Translations under genes and position numbers: made by a program
Notes under the pieces: generated by a model
Database searches by the model: none
What the model was told of the DNA's origin: nothing
Seen by the model: only the letters and a program-made list of their open reading frames with translations
Shown: in pieces, positions 3,170 to 14,774 of the stretch
Layout of the letters: the number at the start of each line of letters is the position of its first letter
How positions within the stretch are numbered: position 1 is the first letter of the stretch
DNA from: a virus
Strand: one strand, 5' to 3'
Virus record (IMG/VR): IMGVR_UViG_3300007540_000010
Coordinates: 1 to 26,062 of that record
DNA: 26,062 nucleotides

Positions 3170-3507
3170 CAGGCGCTTCTATTAACGCACTTCACACGGA
3201 AATTTCTTCTGTCAGTAACACCATTGCCAGTAACAACCTTAGCTGTAACAATATAAGTTTTGTTGGCTTGTCCGCTGCTAAGTTGTACATAAGTGTCACT
3301 GTCTGAGTCAGTTATACCACTGTCAACTATAACAATTGGAGCAGGATCATTTATTCTTGCTGCTACTGTGTAATCAACAGTTGCAATAGTGTCTCCTGTG
3401 TCTAGCCACGTGCTCCAGTCAAAGGTGTAGATCATCACTGCTTCAACATCTTTGTCTATTTCTAATCCTTGATTGGTTTGATAAAAACCAGTTCTATTGT
3501 TGCTCAT
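3169..3507 (-). CDS. Small tail-fibre-associated beta domain protein, 112 aa
   Basis: The C-terminal half contains TYIVTAKVVTGNGVTDRRNF and ends in VKCVNR. This follows the pattern of a short Ig/Fn3-like beta domain found in many phage fibre-associated proteins, in which a final strand with TxxGxTDxRxFxxxV is conserved. The N-terminal DWSTWLDTGDTI is the usual opening strand of that domain. It is translated after the long repeat fibre (ribosome site AGGAG of its own) and is coupled to the holin-like gene. A structural role in the tail tip or fibre is likely; a precise one cannot be given. Confidence 0.65.
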   Translation of the reverse strand: MSNNRTGFYQTNQGLEIDKDVEAVMIYTFDWSTWLDTGDTIATVDYTVAARINDPAPIVIVDSGITDSDSDTYVQLSSGQANKTYIVTAKVVTGNGVTDRRNFRVKCVNRSA

Positions 3508-6212
3508 TATAATTCTCCTAGTGTGAATGTTCTTGTTTCTTTATGAATAGTGTGTGTTCTTGTTTCTTTGTCCACTGTGAACACTCTTAACTCTCTTGGT
3601 ACAACATACACATATCTTGTTGTATCAATAATTGTACCAATTACTGTTTGTGTAAATGCTGCACTAATGCTACTAGTGGTACTTACTAATACACCTGCCG
3701 TAGACGTTATATTAGCTTCACACACGGGCGAAGCACTTAATTGCTTAGTAAGTGTGCCGGTTGCTGTTATTGCAGTTGAAACACCTAAGGTGCTGCTAGT
3801 TTCTGTTGTTTTTGTTGCTGTTGCAGTTTGTGTAGAGTCAACTGCTAAGTCAATATCACCTGCACGACTTACAACTGCTGTAATGCTTGGAGCAAATGCA
3901 CCTGCTAGTGTTGCACCTGCTTCAACTGCCTTGATACCAGCGACTGTTTGTGTTGCAGTTACATCTAGTGCGGCACTTGTGGTTCTTGTAATTTTAGGTG
4001 TTGCAGCAAGTGTGGTATTTACTTGACCTTCAAATGTAGTTGTACCTAAGAAAGTAACACCAGTTGCTGTTGCTGCAAATTCACTTGCAAAATTAGCGTT
4101 TAATCCTTTTGCACGAATACCTATACTATCTAAGGTTGCAGTTGTGTCTAGGTTTGCTACACTACCTGCTACTAATTCACCATCACAGGTTATAGTTGCT
4201 GATGCTGTTAGATTACTTGCAGCAAAGCGTATTCTATCGCCGCTTGCACTCGCTGTTGCAGTTGTGTTTAGGCTTGCACTTGTTGATGCTGTGAATGTTG
4301 CAGTTGCAGCAAGTGTAGCTGTTAAATCAACATCAACAAAGAAGTCGCCTACTTTGCCTGCTGCTGTAAGTGTTGACGCAAATGCTGTTAAGTCACTTGC
4401 AAGTTGTTTAATACGCAAGTTAAGCGCGGTTATGTCCGCTGTTGCTGTTTGAGTGCTAGTTGCACCTGCAATTGTGTTTACAACTGCGTTTTGAGCGAAT
4501 GTGCAGGCTAGGCTGGTAGCGCCTTGTTGTATTCTAGTTGCTGTGCTGGTTTGTGCAAACGTGGCATTTAAACTAGCGTCTGAGGTTAGTATCTTGTCCG
4601 CTGTTGCTGTTGTAGCGAATGCTGTTGCTAGTGTTGCACCATTGTTAACTATTCTATCAACGTCTGCGGTAATTGTTGCTGTTGTTGTTAAATCTGCTTC
4701 TGCACTACTTGTTTCGCCTGCACTTGCAGTCAACGATGCTGTTGTGCTTAGTGCTGCTGCGCCAGATAGTGTAAAGTCAAGCAGATAATCGTCAAGTGTT
4801 TGTTCAAACTGGTGATATAAAACTGCGGTATCAGTGTTAGCTGGACTTCTAACTGGTCCAGTGTCGTTTACTCTAAATGTTACTAGGTCAAATCTTGGGT
4901 ATGGCCCGGAAGGATTTGAATCGCCTTCTGGGTTGTACAGTGTAATTTGACTTATGTCTGAATATAACTTGCCGTTGTAGGTTTTACTGCCAACTTCAAT
5001 ATTTCCGTAATAAAAGGTAAAATCATTGCCTACTCGTTGCAAAGTAAAGTTGCTTTGAATTTCAGTAAGATTACCAACCTGAGCTGTAGTAGCAGTTATT
5101 GTTATGTAACTACCGTTTTGTTTACGGATTTTTACACTTGGTAATTCAACAGTATCATTAACTCTTTCATAACCAAAGTTAATGGTGTTGTCCATAATAA
5201 CATATCTTGGACCGGTGATGGCATATACTGTGTTAAATCCTTCACCAGCACTAAGTATTGTGCTGTCTCCAATAGTTGTTCTTCCATCATTCTGTTTGTG
5301 ATACACGTGAAGATAAAAGTCATCACTGTCTAAATCAATACTGTCAAAATTTGCTGCAAGTGCAACTGTTTCTGCAATTACACTGGGTTCTTGTAACTCA
5401 ACCATGTAATCTAGATAGAAACCACTAGTTTGATTGCTTGTATAATCGTAAACTGTATCGTCAGTTTGCCAACGTGTGGCTAAAGGCCGTGCTGTGCTAT
5501 AATTGTATCCAACAAAGTTGTTTGGACGTCCAAAGTTTAAATTACGAAGCGGATTTGCACTTGCAGTAAATAGTGTGTTTAAACTTGCGTCAAACTGTTT
5601 AATTATTCCTACATTTGCACCAGCAGTTGCAGTTGCGTGTAAGTCTATGCTGCCATTCAAACTTGCTGTTGCTGTAATGCTTGGACTAAACACACCGCTA
5701 AGTGTTGCATCAAGTTGTTTAATTCTTAGTGAATTAATAGTCTGCTCAAAAGAAATCGCTAGTGAACTTGATGTTGCTCTTGTTCTACTAACGATTGGGG
5801 TAGCCGCGAAACTTGCTGCAATACTCATTGCTGTGTCGCGAATCCTGGCGCTTTGTAGACTGAGGTTAACAATGTTGTCAAGTGTTACATCTGTGGTTCT
5901 TGTTCTCTCAAAATCACTTGCAAATGCTGTTTGCAGTGCCATGTCAATTGAGCCATTGCGACTTGCGACAGCTAAAATACTTGGACTGAACACACCATTA
6001 AAATTAGCACCACTGGACTTAACAATTCCCGCAGTTACAGTAGATGCGAATGCGACAGTAATTGTTGCACTTGTTTCTAGTATTGCGCCTTCTTCTTGGT
6101 AGTAGGTTGCATCTATATAACCTGTCGCGATGTAAGGCTCATACTCATAGTAGCCTGTTTCAATGTAGTCTTCTTCGTAATAATAACCTAGTGCGTCACC
6201 TGTTTGTGCCAT
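3507..6212 (-). CDS. Long repetitive tail fibre, 901 aa
   Basis: The protein consists largely of tandem, degenerate units of roughly 20-23 residues built around A(S/T)L-x3-FA and a following Arg- or Lys-containing strand, for example DATLSGVFSPSITATASLNG. Such low-complexity Ala/Thr/Ser repeats form long fibre shafts in marine phages. The N-terminus is tyrosine/glutamate rich (YYEEDYIETGYYEYEPYIAT). Roughly residues 225-475 form a non-repetitive beta-rich domain resembling a concanavalin-like lectin fold. The C-terminus has three short units of the RTHTIHKETRTFTL type. A ribosome site (AAGGA) precedes ATG 6212. Likely function: host receptor binding. Repeat number could vary by recombination because the DNA repeats too. 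Confidence 0.8.
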   Translation of the reverse strand: MAQTGDALGYYYEEDYIETGYYEYEPYIATGYIDATYYQEEGAILETSATITVAFASTVTAGIVKSSGANFNGVFSPSILAVASRNGSIDMALQTAFASDFERTRTTDVTLDNIVNLSLQSARIRDTAMSIAASFAATPIVSRTRATSSSLAISFEQTINSLRIKQLDATLSGVFSPSITATASLNGSIDLHATATAGANVGIIKQFDASLNTLFTASANPLRNLNFGRPNNFVGYNYSTARPLATRWQTDDTVYDYTSNQTSGFYLDYMVELQEPSVIAETVALAANFDSIDLDSDDFYLHVYHKQNDGRTTIGDSTILSAGEGFNTVYAITGPRYVIMDNTINFGYERVNDTVELPSVKIRKQNGSYITITATTAQVGNLTEIQSNFTLQRVGNDFTFYYGNIEVGSKTYNGKLYSDISQITLYNPEGDSNPSGPYPRFDLVTFRVNDTGPVRSPANTDTAVLYHQFEQTLDDYLLDFTLSGAAALSTTASLTASAGETSSAEADLTTTATITADVDRIVNNGATLATAFATTATADKILTSDASLNATFAQTSTATRIQQGATSLACTFAQNAVVNTIAGATSTQTATADITALNLRIKQLASDLTAFASTLTAAGKVGDFFVDVDLTATLAATATFTASTSASLNTTATASASGDRIRFAASNLTASATITCDGELVAGSVANLDTTATLDSIGIRAKGLNANFASEFAATATGVTFLGTTTFEGQVNTTLAATPKITRTTSAALDVTATQTVAGIKAVEAGATLAGAFAPSITAVVSRAGDIDLAVDSTQTATATKTTETSSTLGVSTAITATGTLTKQLSASPVCEANITSTAGVLVSTTSSISAAFTQTVIGTIIDTTRYVYVVPRELRVFTVDKETRTHTIHKETRTFTLGEL

Positions 6213-9126: not shown

Positions 9127-11007
9127 TTACCAATAACCATTGAAGGTTGATACGGTGCCTGTTAGTAGTGTATCACCACCACTTGGGGGCGGATCAAAGC
9201 TGGTAATTACATCAATTTGTACTCCGCCTGCACCAGTAACTGGATCAATATTAACAGTTGATCCAATTGATATTGCCGCAGTTGCTTCGCCTGGATTGGT
9301 TACACTTAGTGTTGTAGGAACTGCTGTGCCGCCAACTGGTGACAACGGTAAGAATGCAGTTTTCTTTACGCTTATTGATTTAAGACGCTGTGTGTCTGCA
9401 TCAAATGTACCACACCACATAATAGGAACTTCAACATACTCACAAGCAAAATCACCTGGCTTACTAACACTTGGCGGTGTAGGTCCAGTTGTAGCATTGT
9501 TAGTAACTGTAATATCTGCTTGATTGTTAGTAATTGCGCAGGGATTGTTTAAACTGCTTCCAACAAATACACTTATACTTTTACTTGTATCATACACTCC
9601 GTCATCAGCAGTTACAATATTAAGGGTAGCAGTATTGTTATTAATTGTAACTGTACCTGATGTAGCTGGTGATGTCATCTTTGGTGTACCATTACCAAAT
9701 ATGTTGTAACTTAGAGTAGTGCCATTTGCATACCCTACCGTTGTTATGGTAACTGTAGTTGACGCACCTTCTTGAATTGAAGTTGGACTTGCTACAACAT
9801 TTTGTACATATTCTGTTGGAGCAGGTTTTACATTAATAACTGTAGCTTCGCCATCAACTGTAACAGTCATTGTCTTATCTGCACTTACAGTAGGTGTAAT
9901 TACAAGAGTGCCCGGTGTTGTGCCTACGATTTGAATGTTTCCAGTTAGCGGAACGTCTACTTCTCCTGCACTAACACCTGTAATTGTATAAGGATATTCA
10001 AATGCCGGATTGTCAAAGAAACAACTTTCGCAACTGCTTTCTAAACTAAATGTTACAGGAGAGCCACTACAAACATCAGTTGCACTTGCACTTTTAGTTA
10101 CTGCTCCGCCTGTTGGCTTTGCAATACTTTCTATTGCTTTTTGTATATCAGGGTCAGCAAACTTGCCTTCATTAATAATTGCACCAGTGTCTTCGTCAAC
10201 TGTAAACAAACTATTAATTAACCCTAGGGCGGCATTGGCTGCTAATAGTCCGCCCATTTGCTTACCAATACTAATGTCGTCTTTTAAGTCTAGTTCTTCA
10301 CTTAGTAGTTTTGATTTGATGCCAGTGAAGTTTGAACGATATTCGTATGTTAATCCAGTACCACCACTTGAGTTGTTTACACCAACTGTTGGATCATAGA
10401 TGTTTGCATCATATTCTTGTGCTGTGATGCTGAATATTAAATTGCCATCGTCTTCATCTTCTTCTTCAATTTGTATTACTCTAAACAACTTGCCAGTAAA
10501 GTCAAGGGCACTATTTGTAATGTCAACAACATCGCCTGCTCTTACAGTGTTTGCTTCAAAGTTAGCACGGAATTCAATAATCTTATCAAGTCTGCTTTGT
10601 TTTAATTCGCGACTGGCAATGTAAGCTGCCTGAACAGGTTCATTTACAATTGGTATTTCTATGTTAAGAACATTGTCTATTTCTTGTGCAAATCTATCTG
10701 CTGTTGGAACAGTTAATTGTATTTGATCCGTTGTGTCTCTAGTATCTTTGTTAGGGAATGTTGCAACAACACTGTTGTATAAGTCATTAACACCAGTGCC
10801 GCCTACATTTATTTCACCAATAATGTTTGAGTCATCAAATGCACGAACACTGCTAGATGTTGTATTAAGAATAACAATCCACTTGCCTTGTTGCGGATCC
10901 CATGTTAAGTAGCATCCACTTACGTTTGCTAGTTGATTAAGATTGTCTAACACATTATTGCTTGTGTTTATTAATCCGTTAATTTTAAATTGATCTAAAG
11001 AAGCCAT
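9127..11007 (-). CDS. Tail hub protein, C-terminal portion (Phage-tail_3-like), 626 aa
   Basis: Residues 1-205 match the second half of the tail hub/baseplate protein of marine siphophages: QFKINGLINTSNNVLDNLNQ, YLTWDPQQGKWIVIL, INEPVQAAYIASRELKQSR in pattern (written here as NEPVQAAYIASRELKQSR), VRAGDVVDI, GKLFRVIQIEEED and a final ITAQEYD. In related phages this domain continues directly from the domain at the end of the 13420-14184 product. After it come a helical linker (about 205-295) and Ig-like beta domains. AGGA lies seven bases before ATG 11007. It lies in the same reading frame as the N-terminal portion, with a separate 803-codon ORF between the two, so the hub seems to be built from separate chains. 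Likely location: distal tail tip. Confidence 0.75.
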   Translation of the reverse strand: MASLDQFKINGLINTSNNVLDNLNQLANVSGCYLTWDPQQGKWIVILNTTSSSVRAFDDSNIIGEINVGGTGVNDLYNSVVATFPNKDTRDTTDQIQLTVPTADRFAQEIDNVLNIEIPIVNEPVQAAYIASRELKQSRLDKIIEFRANFEANTVRAGDVVDITNSALDFTGKLFRVIQIEEEDEDDGNLIFSITAQEYDANIYDPTVGVNNSSGGTGLTYEYRSNFTGIKSKLLSEELDLKDDISIGKQMGGLLAANAALGLINSLFTVDEDTGAIINEGKFADPDIQKAIESIAKPTGGAVTKSASATDVCSGSPVTFSLESSCESCFFDNPAFEYPYTITGVSAGEVDVPLTGNIQIVGTTPGTLVITPTVSADKTMTVTVDGEATVINVKPAPTEYVQNVVASPTSIQEGASTTVTITTVGYANGTTLSYNIFGNGTPKMTSPATSGTVTINNNTATLNIVTADDGVYDTSKSISVFVGSSLNNPCAITNNQADITVTNNATTGPTPPSVSKPGDFACEYVEVPIMWCGTFDADTQRLKSISVKKTAFLPLSPVGGTAVPTTLSVTNPGEATAAISIGSTVNIDPVTGAGGVQIDVITSFDPPPSGGDTLLTGTVSTFNGYW

Positions 11008-11011
11008 CTGT

Positions 11012-13423
11012 TTATCCTACGTTTGTTATTATGACAGTTTTATCTTCAGTATTTGACACTGGAGTTGTTACGTCATATGTTAATTGAATATTACTAATAC
11101 TAGAACTTGTTAGTGTTATTGTATCTATATCACTATTAACCTCAGCCTTTGTGCCTACTATTGTATATGTTTTTGCAGTATCATCAAATGCTTGTGGCTT
11201 AGGTCCATATGTGTATGTAACAAATCCTTTATCGCCATTACCGTCAATGCCAGTGGCAACAATTTCGGTGCCGTCTAAATTAATTTGCCAGCCGTATATT
11301 ATATCCATATAAGGTGATAAATCAATTGTTCTGTCTTCAGTAAATGTATTAGTTGATTCGTCAAAATCAATTTTAATAAATTCAAAATCAGTCTGAGAAT
11401 TAACTAATTTAAGAACAACTGTTGTTCCGTCATCGCTTACTTTATAATCATTTAAATTAAATGTAGAACTAGGTGTAAAGCTGGTAGTCTGTGTGTAAGT
11501 TTGTGGTGCACTGCCTGTGCCTCTTGTCATCACATAAAGATTAGTTCCGTCACCGTAAATATACCTAGTTCCATCTACAGTAAAATAACTGTTACGCTTT
11601 GAATTTGAAATCTTTTCATCAAAATACCAAACACTGCCACTTCCGGTATAATAGTAAGTATCTGTATCACCAATTCCGTCTGATATTACTAATTTTGTGC
11701 CATCTGCTGATAGTCTAGTCTGGCCCCAACCATAACTGCTATTAAGGTCATTATCTGGATCTGTAAATGTTTTTACTCTACTGTAATCTCCTAATCCAGT
11801 GCGTGTATAGATGTAAACTGATCCTGCTCTGTTTTCACCAGTATCTATATCAGTTGGTTCAGCGATAGCAAGTGTGTCACCGTCCCTACTGCATGAAATC
11901 TCTAGTCCAAACCAAGAATCAGCAATGTTGCCGACTTGACTAATTGTTTGTTTCAGTGCCCAAGTTGTGCCTGACTGTGTAAATGTATTAGTTGCTTGAT
12001 CATATCTTTTGTAAACGTAAACTCTGCCAATAGGATCATTAACAGTGCTGCTGCCTAAGTAACCAAACCCACTTGTAATAACTGTATCGTCATCTGCCAT
12101 TATTATTCTTGAGCCTAAGACTTGATTAGCGCCGACTCCAAATATTGATCTAACTAAACTATATTCTGTGCCAGTTTTAATAAACCAATGCAGTGCGCCA
12201 TTGTCTGTTTGAACTGTATCGTCTCCAGGATTACCAAGAACCAATACATTATTTGTACTTCCGTATGCGCCTCTTATTAATTCACCAGTTGAACTTGCAG
12301 TATATGTATATTCTTGTTCTACGCCCCAACGAATTACACCAGTAGATGATATATTTTGGACTTGGCTAGTAATTGCTGGAGTTAGTGTTAGTGTGTACTC
12401 GCCATTACCAGTATAATCAGGGTCAAGTATTTGTGGAGCATCTAACCCTATATTACTAGCAACAGTTGATGTATAACTAGCAGTGCCTCTTGGCTCAGTC
12501 AAATAATCTAAATTTAAACAATTCATTTGTTGTCTAACTGAATATGTTATTGCACTTGTACTTACGGTACCTTGATACTGTAGATAAAAGTCTGCTTTTA
12601 CACTGGTGGTTGATATTAAAATGTTTGCAAGTAAAGTTTCTACTTGAGATTCATTTCCAGTAAGTGATAACACTTTAGTAGATTCATTCCAAACACTGCC
12701 AAAACCCAGTGCTGTCATACTATCAACTACACTTAAATCGCTTGGTGTAACAGTAATATTCCAAGTTCCAGGAGTACCGTCATAAACAATAGTTGGTGTT
12801 CCAGTAATTGCTTGATCGTTTGTTGATTTGGTAAAACTAAATGTGCTTGTGTCACTAAATCCTGCAGGTGTTAAATTAGCAGTAACACTAAAGTAATCTG
12901 CTAACGCAGTAGTTGTACCTCTTGTAACATTGGGTGTAACTGTTAAACTTGCAGTAGAACTTACTGCTAACACTGGCACAAATGTACCTACTTGCCAACT
13001 TGATTCTTGTATGCCTTCTGGTGTATTATATCTAATAGTTGAAGTGTAAAAAAAACTGCCTTGGAATGTGTTTGGAATAGTAATAGTTGGTGCTCTAACT
13101 GTTTGCCAATCACTTACGCTATCAATTCCTTGCATAATAAAAACGCCATTACTACTTACAACACTGCATCCAGCAGGTATTGTGCTCCATGATACCGTTG
13201 CGCCAGGTACACCACTGACATCAATTTCATATTCAACTAATGCTTGTGTAGGTTTTATAATTTCGTCAATTTCATTACTGCGTTGTGCAGTAAATGATTG
13301 CGTTTCAATAGTAAAATTTAAATTTCTTGATGTTAACCAAGTTAATTTAGCTCCATACGGACGATTGTCTGTAAATGTAACTGTGTTATTTGAATAATTG
13401 TTAAGTTCTGTTAAACTGCTCAT
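11012..13423 (-). CDS. Beta-domain/propeller-like tail tip protein within the split hub, 803 aa
   Basis: The first 18 residues (SSLTELNNYSNNTVTFTD) look like the linker that in related phages follows the hub N-terminal domain. Then come Ig-like domains (for example VEYEIDVSGVPGATVSWS) and, in about residues 370-760, repeated blades with SADGTKLVISDG, DDTVITSGFGY and VYVYKRYD patterns that resemble FG-GAP or kelch-like propellers. The ORF overlaps the upstream gene by ATGA and ends four bases before the downstream ATG, so the three ORFs are translationally coupled. Likely role: surface-exposed tail tip or receptor contact. It may represent a large domain inserted into a once continuous hub gene. 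Confidence 0.65.
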   Translation of the reverse strand: MSSLTELNNYSNNTVTFTDNRPYGAKLTWLTSRNLNFTIETQSFTAQRSNEIDEIIKPTQALVEYEIDVSGVPGATVSWSTIPAGCSVVSSNGVFIMQGIDSVSDWQTVRAPTITIPNTFQGSFFYTSTIRYNTPEGIQESSWQVGTFVPVLAVSSTASLTVTPNVTRGTTTALADYFSVTANLTPAGFSDTSTFSFTKSTNDQAITGTPTIVYDGTPGTWNITVTPSDLSVVDSMTALGFGSVWNESTKVLSLTGNESQVETLLANILISTTSVKADFYLQYQGTVSTSAITYSVRQQMNCLNLDYLTEPRGTASYTSTVASNIGLDAPQILDPDYTGNGEYTLTLTPAITSQVQNISSTGVIRWGVEQEYTYTASSTGELIRGAYGSTNNVLVLGNPGDDTVQTDNGALHWFIKTGTEYSLVRSIFGVGANQVLGSRIIMADDDTVITSGFGYLGSSTVNDPIGRVYVYKRYDQATNTFTQSGTTWALKQTISQVGNIADSWFGLEISCSRDGDTLAIAEPTDIDTGENRAGSVYIYTRTGLGDYSRVKTFTDPDNDLNSSYGWGQTRLSADGTKLVISDGIGDTDTYYYTGSGSVWYFDEKISNSKRNSYFTVDGTRYIYGDGTNLYVMTRGTGSAPQTYTQTTSFTPSSTFNLNDYKVSDDGTTVVLKLVNSQTDFEFIKIDFDESTNTFTEDRTIDLSPYMDIIYGWQINLDGTEIVATGIDGNGDKGFVTYTYGPKPQAFDDTAKTYTIVGTKAEVNSDIDTITLTSSSISNIQLTYDVTTPVSNTEDKTVIITNVG

Positions 13424-14184
13424 TGTGCTTCAATCTCCGCTGCTGGTATACCTGCTCCGTAGCGTGTATTAGTCATATAATCATACAAACAATCACCTGG
13501 ATCTGTCATTGTATTTGACAATTTAAATTTAATTTCTCTACCAATACTTGTAAGTTTTTTGTTTTGTTCGCTGCTGTACCTAAACTTCATAATGCAGAAT
13601 ACTAAATCATTCATTGTGTCTGTGCTAGTCCATCCAGGCATAATATCGTATGCCGGTTGTGTGTTACCAGTTGATTCACTATAAAAACTCGCTGGACTTG
13701 TGCTGCCGCCACTGAATGGATATACTTCAATTAAGTTTGCCCACTGTTCACTGTTGTTGCCACTGTCATCCCATATGGTGCTTACTGTTGTGCCAGTGCT
13801 GTCAAATCCAAGACGCATCCCATCAACGTATATTTCTTTGAAACTAATTGCACTGGCTGTTCCGTCAATCTTTGTGCCTGTCTTTTCACATAAGGTAAAG
13901 CAAACCCACATATCAAAGTTGTTGTCTGCCATAACTGCATCTGTAATTTTACCAGTAACAAAGCCTTCGCCGTACAACACTGGAACGCTGTATTCTGTGT
14001 CAGGATCAAGTGTAAACTGTGTGCCTTTGTCTGGTTGTTGATTTGCTTTTTGGGCACTTGCTGTTACTCTGTTTAGGGCATAACCTAAAAGTGCAGTTCT
14101 TGCTAGTTGACCACCTATGCTGCTGCCGCCTACAAACCCTAGGGCTTTTTTGCCAAAGCCTACTATACTATCTATAAAACTCAT
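13420..14184 (-). CDS. Tail hub protein, N-terminal portion, 254 aa
   Basis: After a short amphipathic Gly/Ala-rich N-terminus (GGSSIGGQLARTALLGYALN) the protein has DPDTEYSVPVLYGEGFVTGK, MWVCFTLCEKTG and a terminal TDPGDCLYDYMTNTRYGAGI. These are hallmark segments of tail tip attachment (J-like) proteins in marine phages. In those relatives the chain continues through a linker into the domain found here at the start of the 9127-11007 product. Here it stops with TGA overlapping the ATG of the next gene (ATGA). The start likewise overlaps the stop of the upstream gene. Either the break is genuine domain splitting, or a frameshift fuses the products. Confidence 0.75.
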   Translation of the reverse strand: MSFIDSIVGFGKKALGFVGGSSIGGQLARTALLGYALNRVTASAQKANQQPDKGTQFTLDPDTEYSVPVLYGEGFVTGKITDAVMADNNFDMWVCFTLCEKTGTKIDGTASAISFKEIYVDGMRLGFDSTGTTVSTIWDDSGNNSEQWANLIEVYPFSGGSTSPASFYSESTGNTQPAYDIMPGWTSTDTMNDLVFCIMKFRYSSEQNKKLTSIGREIKFKLSNTMTDPGDCLYDYMTNTRYGAGIPAAEIEAQ

Positions 14185-14774
14185 TGTGGTGCTCCAAAGT
14201 TAAATTTTGTACCTTTAATAGTTGGTACTCTATTCATTGCAGTGTCACTGGGGTAAAAAGTCTTTTGACTTTGTGGATTTGTTTTACGTCCGCTAATCTT
14301 TTGACTTAGTATGCCTACACTGCTTGCACATTCCAACATTAATATATGGCTACTGGTTCTTGAATCAACGTCAAAGTCTTCTTGAATTGAATAGTTGTTA
14401 ACACTACCTATAAACCTGCCCGTAATGGTGCCAATTAGATCGCCTGCTGAATTAAAATAGCCGCGGTATATACTTATTGGGCAACCTTTAATCTTGCTGT
14501 GTACAATTTCATTGATACTGTTGGTTGGTATGCCACTGAGGCCTATGGTTACAGGATTTTCACTTGGACGCAATTCATTAGTGCTTGATGTAACACTTAG
14601 AAATTCGCCAAGGGCAGTGTATACTTCTGAGTTAATTGTAACTGGTGCATCGTAATCACTAAAACGTAATACTTGTGATGAATATGCTCCACTTGAAGTT
14701 GTTCTGTATTCGTCAACTTGTAAGCGAACAAACATGCCTACTCTAACGCTGGTGTATGAGTCTAAATTAGGCAT
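14181..14774 (-). CDS. Distal tail protein (DUF2163-like), 197 aa
   Basis: A beta-rich protein between the tape-measure-proximal minor tail protein and the hub, the position of DUF2163/L-like tail tip proteins in lambda-type and GTA-type tail modules. Visible segments that fit are the opening VRVGMFVRLQVDEYRTTSSG, APVTINSEVYTALGEFLSV, PVTIGLSGIPTNSINEIV and a late LMLECASSVGILSQK. The last segment corresponds to the conserved region before the C-terminal motif in these proteins. A GGAGG ribosome site lies in the end of the upstream gene. Family placement is by position and general pattern only. Confidence 0.6.
   Translation of the reverse strand: MPNLDSYTSVRVGMFVRLQVDEYRTTSSGAYSSQVLRFSDYDAPVTINSEVYTALGEFLSVTSSTNELRPSENPVTIGLSGIPTNSINEIVHSKIKGCPISIYRGYFNSAGDLIGTITGRFIGSVNNYSIQEDFDVDSRTSSHILMLECASSVGILSQKISGRKTNPQSQKTFYPSDTAMNRVPTIKGTKFNFGAPQ

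Follow-up and report, generated by a model that had tools for sequence, protein, structure and literature searches.

We report that the tail hub of an uncultivated virus is, by homology, a split counterpart of the T5 pb3/lambda gpJ-type hub, whose two halves are encoded on either side of a gene for a modular adhesin-like protein. The explanation that we favor, and that we regard as quite probable, is that this adhesin is made separately, can be exchanged between phages, and docks by completing the fold of the hub.

The DNA examined (the window) is the whole 26,062-base IMG/VR virus record IMGVR_UViG_3300007540_000010, possibly a genome fragment. The tail genes on its minus strand are transcribed in the order tape-measure protein, two small tail proteins, hub part 1, middle gene, hub part 2, and fiber-like genes (Table 1). 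A sequence-only reading had described three abutting open reading frames (ORFs), of which the outer two share a frame and the middle one occupies another, with an ATGA overlap at the first junction and a four-base gap at the second. All of this is accurate: the ORFs have the boundaries and lengths claimed for them, the starts of the hub parts lie 3177 (3 x 1059) nucleotides apart, and the gap occupies positions 11008-11011.

Table 1. Features of the divided hub locus in the window, in order of transcription
Feature	Position	Strand	Description
Upstream tail protein	14181..14774	-	197 aa, own gene; phrog_2048 (7.9e-24); position comparable to lambda gpL, role putative
Hub part 1	13420..14184	-	254 aa; N-terminal part of T5 pb3/lambda J-type hub; hydrophobic N terminus through ...GDCLYDYMTNTRYGAGIPAAEIEAQ
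ATGA	13420..13423	-	TGA stop of hub part 1 shares bases with the ATG of the middle gene
Middle gene	11012..13423	-	803 aa; modular adhesin-like protein
Linker/strand of hub, proposed docking segment	13364..13423	-	middle protein residues 1-20, MSSLTELNNYSNNTVTFTDN; linker HMM E 3e-4
Conserved N-domain	12974..13363	-	residues 21-150; common to most middle proteins (alignment A4)
Complete cadherin-like repeat	12560..12835	-	residues 197-288 (...LSLTGNESQVETLL...); 3.8e-18 with repeat HMM built without the window
First half of second cadherin-like repeat	12329..12478	-	residues ~316-365; repeat HMM 2.4e-10 for 316-376
Probable FG-GAP-type beta-propeller, nested in second repeat	11192..12328	-	residues ~366-744, boundaries approximate; flanked by the repeat halves
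Second half of interrupted repeat	11015..11191	-	residues ~745-803; same motif in the window sequence
AGGA, Shine-Dalgarno-like site of hub part 2	11015..11018	-	overlaps end of middle gene
Hub part 2	9127..11007	-	626 aa; residues 1-210 are the Phage-tail_3 hub domain, followed by a variable C-terminal region

The Outer Genes Encode Halves of One Hub Chain

Both hub parts are found in a single ORF in 13 unique fused homologues, among them that of the cultured Methylophilaceae phage P19250A. These fused relatives read ...DCLYDYMTNDLYGASINPNLIN-TSSITALNTYSAQSVTYGNFPAQQRYAVNGLVSTNNKVL... within one ORF of about 1000 aa. In loci L064, L066-L078, and L081, both halves share one ORF (about 1000 aa where complete) with a linker such as INTSSITALNTYSAQSVTYGNFPAQQRYAVNGLV between them, and both parts lie in one annotated gene in the cultured phages P19250A, HTVC111P, and HTVC202P. 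The fused ORFs bear out the earlier proposal that the two pieces form a single chain in related phages.

A profile built from the fused hubs and both halves (A1) matches the solved structure of the T5 hub protein pb3 (7zhj) with an E value of 3.7e-14 over pb3 residues 248-720, the match starting at residue 248 over hub part 1. The same profile matches a second hub, 8hqz, with an E value of 2.8e-16. In addition, hub part 2 matches PF13550 at residues 17-181 (6.8e-6) and phrog_5616 (3e-15), and its stretch of the profile aligns with pb3 ~519-719. This alignment places the cut at about pb3 residues 499-521, after LMDYLTSDRYGADI and before ENRQIVQLNTILDTSESVF. Over residues 461-533, pb3 follows the same path (LMDYLTSDRYGADI...QIVQLNTILDTSES), but as a single chain, and a short loop (~499-521) takes the place of the separate 803-aa protein of the window (PDB 7ZHJ; PMC10038345).

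In the window, as in 65 unique relatives, the homologous core is carried on two ORFs rather than on one continuous chain. Both T5 and lambda have a trimeric hub (PMC10038345, PMC10721106), and by homology the hub of the window phage would be a trimer that closes the tail tube. It is probably already divided upstream of this site as well, with the 197-aa phrog_2048 protein encoded separately and the 254-aa part matching pb3 only from residue 248.

The Three-Gene Layout Recurs with Nearly Constant Junctions

A search with one alignment returned 322 IMG/VR stretches that encode relatives of hub part 1, and gene layout was classified for 138 examined loci. The three-gene arrangement was observed in 65 unique hub lineages. 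Hub part 1 ends 8-9 residues past the motif YGAG in 61 of these 65, and in all 65 the start of hub part 2 precedes the end of the ING motif by 9-15 residues. The first junction is a 4-base overlap in 41/65 unique loci, and the second is mostly a gap of 9-10 nt rather than an overlap. Given that 65 unique lineages share this layout and these nearly constant junctions, sequencing or assembly error was rejected as the cause of the split. An intein- or intron-split gene was rejected as well, since Pfam reveals no splicing domain in the middle protein and hub sequence begins directly at its start codon.

Several loci depart from this plan. Four relatives (L030, L051, L060, and L079) are split at the same point but carry no insert, and their linker continues directly into hub part 2, as in L030, whose second ORF includes MKTLAQLNSYSTGTVTFTDETAGIGQILANRYQINGLID. 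In L045, L046, L053, and L139 the middle gene is present twice in tandem, with a first copy of 133-154 aa and a second of 779-877 aa. Both copies open with the linker motif, which would fit a pair of adhesins sharing the sockets of the hub. In L136, an 83-aa ORF that follows hub part 1 opens with the linker motif and ends 1572 nt before hub part 2; no clear continuation ORF was found after it, and we consider it a broken gene or an assembly error. Finally, a LamG (concanavalin-like) domain of ~140 aa lies in frame within hub part 2, near residue 50, in two loci (L016:9944-11965 and L019:8078-9967), so that the hub tolerates insertions at another site as well.

Each of the Three Proteins Is Probably Translated Separately

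The tight abutment of the ORFs raises the possibility that programmed frameshifting or readthrough of the stop codons yields one giant chain, such that the split is only apparent. Indeed, the overlapping frame is open for at least 5 codons before the middle start in 42/65 loci. However, in the window the middle frame is open for only 2 codons before its ATG and the frame of hub part 2 for only 3, and a slippery heptamer is present in the first overlap of just 1 of 55 loci. The prevalent gap between the middle gene and hub part 2 also speaks against a joined product, as do the Shine-Dalgarno sites at both starts. Specifically, Shine-Dalgarno 4-mers precede 58/65 middle starts and 63/65 starts of hub part 2, compared to 25 of 709 internal in-frame ATGs. 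We therefore regard a giant chain as very improbable. The sequence features support separate translation of three proteins, and a frameshift-fused product is essentially excluded in the window.

The Middle Protein Begins with the Linker of Fused Hubs

It had also been proposed that the middle ORF opens with the short linker that joins the two halves in related phages. When an HMM built from fused linkers only was compared to 1030 ORFs of non-fused loci, its 8 best matches were all N termini of middle ORFs, and the middle ORF of the window was matched with an E value of 3e-4. These results confirm the proposal. The motif is present at the start of 64 middle proteins among the 65 unique three-gene hubs, with LN at residue 7 in 57, and the resulting signature is MxSLxxLN...TDxR. 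With middle ORFs in the top 8 of 1030 positions of the linker HMM search, and with 65 unique hub lineages showing the layout, the linker match and the arrangement are well beyond chance.

Middle Proteins Are Replaced between Phages with Similar Hubs

Close relatives keep the hub halves and the linker but differ in the rest of the middle protein. Hub part 1 of the window is 89% identical to that of L003 and the N-domain of hub part 2 is 96% identical, whereas the middle proteins cannot be aligned past residue 170. Like swaps are seen between the window and L004, and in the pairs L002/L003, L002/L004, L096/L100, L135/L140, L129/L140, and L022/L140. Across swap pairs, which are not all independent because loci recur among them, hub part 1 is 84-93% identical and the N-domain of hub part 2 is 89-96% identical, with no alignable middle protein past residue 170. 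In these swaps, the middle protein is best conserved at residues 1-20, with 60-90% identity, compared to 26-48% for residues 21-150 (81% in L096/L100). This combination of a conserved N terminus and a variable distal part is that of a receptor-binding protein or adhesin, in which the N terminus would anchor the protein to the virion. The middle gene of the window is under purifying selection: its dN/dS value against L002 is 0.29 over 791 codons, compared to 0.12 and 0.20 for the hub halves.

One could argue that the middle gene is unrelated cargo, inserted at the boundary of two tail proteins that are separate by nature, and that the linker similarity arose by chance. Each ORF has its own start and Shine-Dalgarno site, and ATGA overlaps are common in the tail operon of the window, as at 14181-14184. 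Yet this idea conflicts with the existence of fused and two-gene homologues, with the linker HMM result, and with the 60-90% identity of the linker when the remainder is swapped, and we find it scarcely credible. The comparative data instead support, at the level of genes rather than proteins, the earlier suggestion that a large insert in a hub gene has been resolved into separate proteins.

Domains of the Middle Protein

Middle proteins are assembled from different modules. Among 67 that were scanned, Pfam matches include Gly_rich_2 (27/67), LamG (7/67), and DUF285 (3/67), and FG-GAP_2 is found in 16/67 at E<0.01, in some cases far above the cutoff (best 3e-50). The beta-propeller named for the window in the sequence-only reading is supported by an FG-GAP_2 repeat at residues 502-539, but its score of 18 bits is below the curated Pfam cutoff of 23, and no Pfam match exceeds the cutoff in this protein. 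Thus, adhesin-type distal domains are found across the family, whereas the window itself provides only the subthreshold FG-GAP_2 match. The repeat HMM used to define the cadherin-like repeats also aligns through the corresponding C-terminal stretch of the L002 protein (68% identical) with an E value of 1.2e-12. The probable propeller appears to lie within a cadherin-like repeat (window 11015-12478), which would amount to an insertion inside an insertion.

The N-domain (residues 21-150) has no PDB match at E<1, and no convincing PDB relative was identified for the middle protein. Relatives were likewise absent from the cultured-phage collection, in which no three-gene phage was found, and a search of genome contigs for hosts or prophages returned no relative. 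Modules homologous to those of middle proteins do occur in fiber genes. One such gene follows the fused hub of L073-L075 and L081 at a distance of 3 nt. The LamG/Gly-rich fiber gene of the window matches the middle protein of L005. To judge from the domain types and the swaps, the insert is a swappable multi-domain adhesin-like protein, and not one fixed domain.

A Model for the Divided Hub

In the arrangement that we propose, the products of all three genes would form one tail-tip hub assembly, in which parts 1 and 2 are the halves of a pb3/gpJ-type chain cut at one loop. The middle gene would provide a free-standing multi-domain adhesin whose first ~20 residues correspond to the linker that fused hubs carry just before the loop. 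The three proteins are likely made separately by coupled translation, and the N-terminal segment of the middle protein is predicted to dock by completing the hub fold. Each trimeric hub presumably holds three copies of the middle protein, if lambda and T5 are a guide. The repeats, propeller, and lectin-like or Gly-rich tips would then extend outward from the tip of the tail to bind the surface of the host. Because the binding module is a separate gene, it can be exchanged without touching the hub.

The putative adhesion role is drawn from the variability and the domain types of the middle protein. Propeller and LamG folds occur in glycan-active enzymes too, and it is possible that the middle protein resides in the tail tip but does not bind the host, serving for example as a surface-glycan enzyme or as a structural spacer by which the hub is sealed or made longer. 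The hub insertions of lambda and T5 have plug or structural roles (PMC10721106, PMC10038345), which adds some weight to such a function. However, wholesale replacement between phages with ~90% identical hubs is not expected of a structural part, and Gly-rich and LamG modules are common to middle proteins and fiber genes. We consider an enzyme or spacer unlikely, and retain host binding as the preferred role.

Relationship to Known Tail Tips

Division of a hub is known from other phages. The content of T5 pb3 is spread over gpL and gpJ in lambda and over gp13 and gp15 in the gene transfer agent (GTA), and lambda gpI sits at the place of the plug domain that is inserted in T5 (PMC10721106). In lambda (gpL/gpI/gpJ) and RcGTA (gp13-gp15), as in the window, neighboring genes thus encode pieces of the hub that T5 makes as one chain (PMC10721106). 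Those systems are divided around the HDI/HDII-insertion with an internal plug between, whereas the window hub is cut further on and its insert is a large, variable, adhesin-like protein. A split of the lambda L/I/J type was rejected for the window because its cut, at pb3 ~499-521, is well past the plug tip at 233-236 (PMC10038345). In T5 itself, pb3 keeps hdI and the plug in the same chain, and host binding is carried out by pb5 on the central fiber (PMC10038345).

Insertion of binding modules also has precedents. Evolved Dit and other tail proteins of siphophages with Gram-positive hosts carry inserted carbohydrate-binding modules (PMC6669499, PMC10688798), and so, as proposed for the window, have a host-binding module inserted in a tail-tip protein. 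The insert there stays in one chain and in a different protein, whereas in the window it has its own gene and the hub is split. Another parallel is the Pelagibacter phage HTVC112P (L090, MN698246), which has a PA14/GLEYA domain at hub residues 293-399, just before Phage-tail_3 and at about the same site. This is a different domain in a single-chain hub, rather than a separate gene.

Hence, split hubs and binding-module inserts in tail proteins are known, and the new features are a cut at another loop and an exchangeable adhesin. In a literature search, for which subscription papers were mostly outside reach, we met no account of a hub that is cut at this loop and holds the gene of an exchangeable adhesin in the gap. 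We lean, by a little, toward the view that this is a widespread and undescribed design in uncultivated, probably aquatic phages, wherein the hub is permanently split at one loop, the missing segment comes from an exchangeable adhesin gene, cassettes swap as whole genes, and tandem adhesins in some lineages compete for or share docking sites. If so, a conserved tail-tip core would tolerate rapid change of host range by offering a fixed socket to which a separate gene can bring any binding domain. The MxSLxxLN...TDxR signature would then pick out probable host-binding genes in many uncultivated phages, and the split hub would offer a ready test of docking by fold complementation.

Order of Splitting and Insertion

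AU tests on the hub part 1 tree do not reject the hypothesis that splitting arose once (p = 0.16), but they do reject one origin for the inserted form (p = 0.013). Given these tests and the four relatives that are split without an insert, splitting may have occurred before, or independently of, insertion. Nine fused IMG/VR hubs nest among split ones with modest support, and the branch that leads to P19250A is very long; the nesting may reflect re-fusion or an artifact of long branches. The continuous chain is probably ancestral, because T5 pb3 and the cultured outgroup are both continuous at the cut site.

Two additional genes of the window were noted. Positions 3507-6212 encode a probable fiber component of 901 aa, which is repetitive, rich in Ala and Thr, and matched by neither Pfam nor PHROG. 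At the contig end (25655-26062) lies a gene for a SegE-type GIY-YIG endonuclease (PF19835, 1.4e-32).
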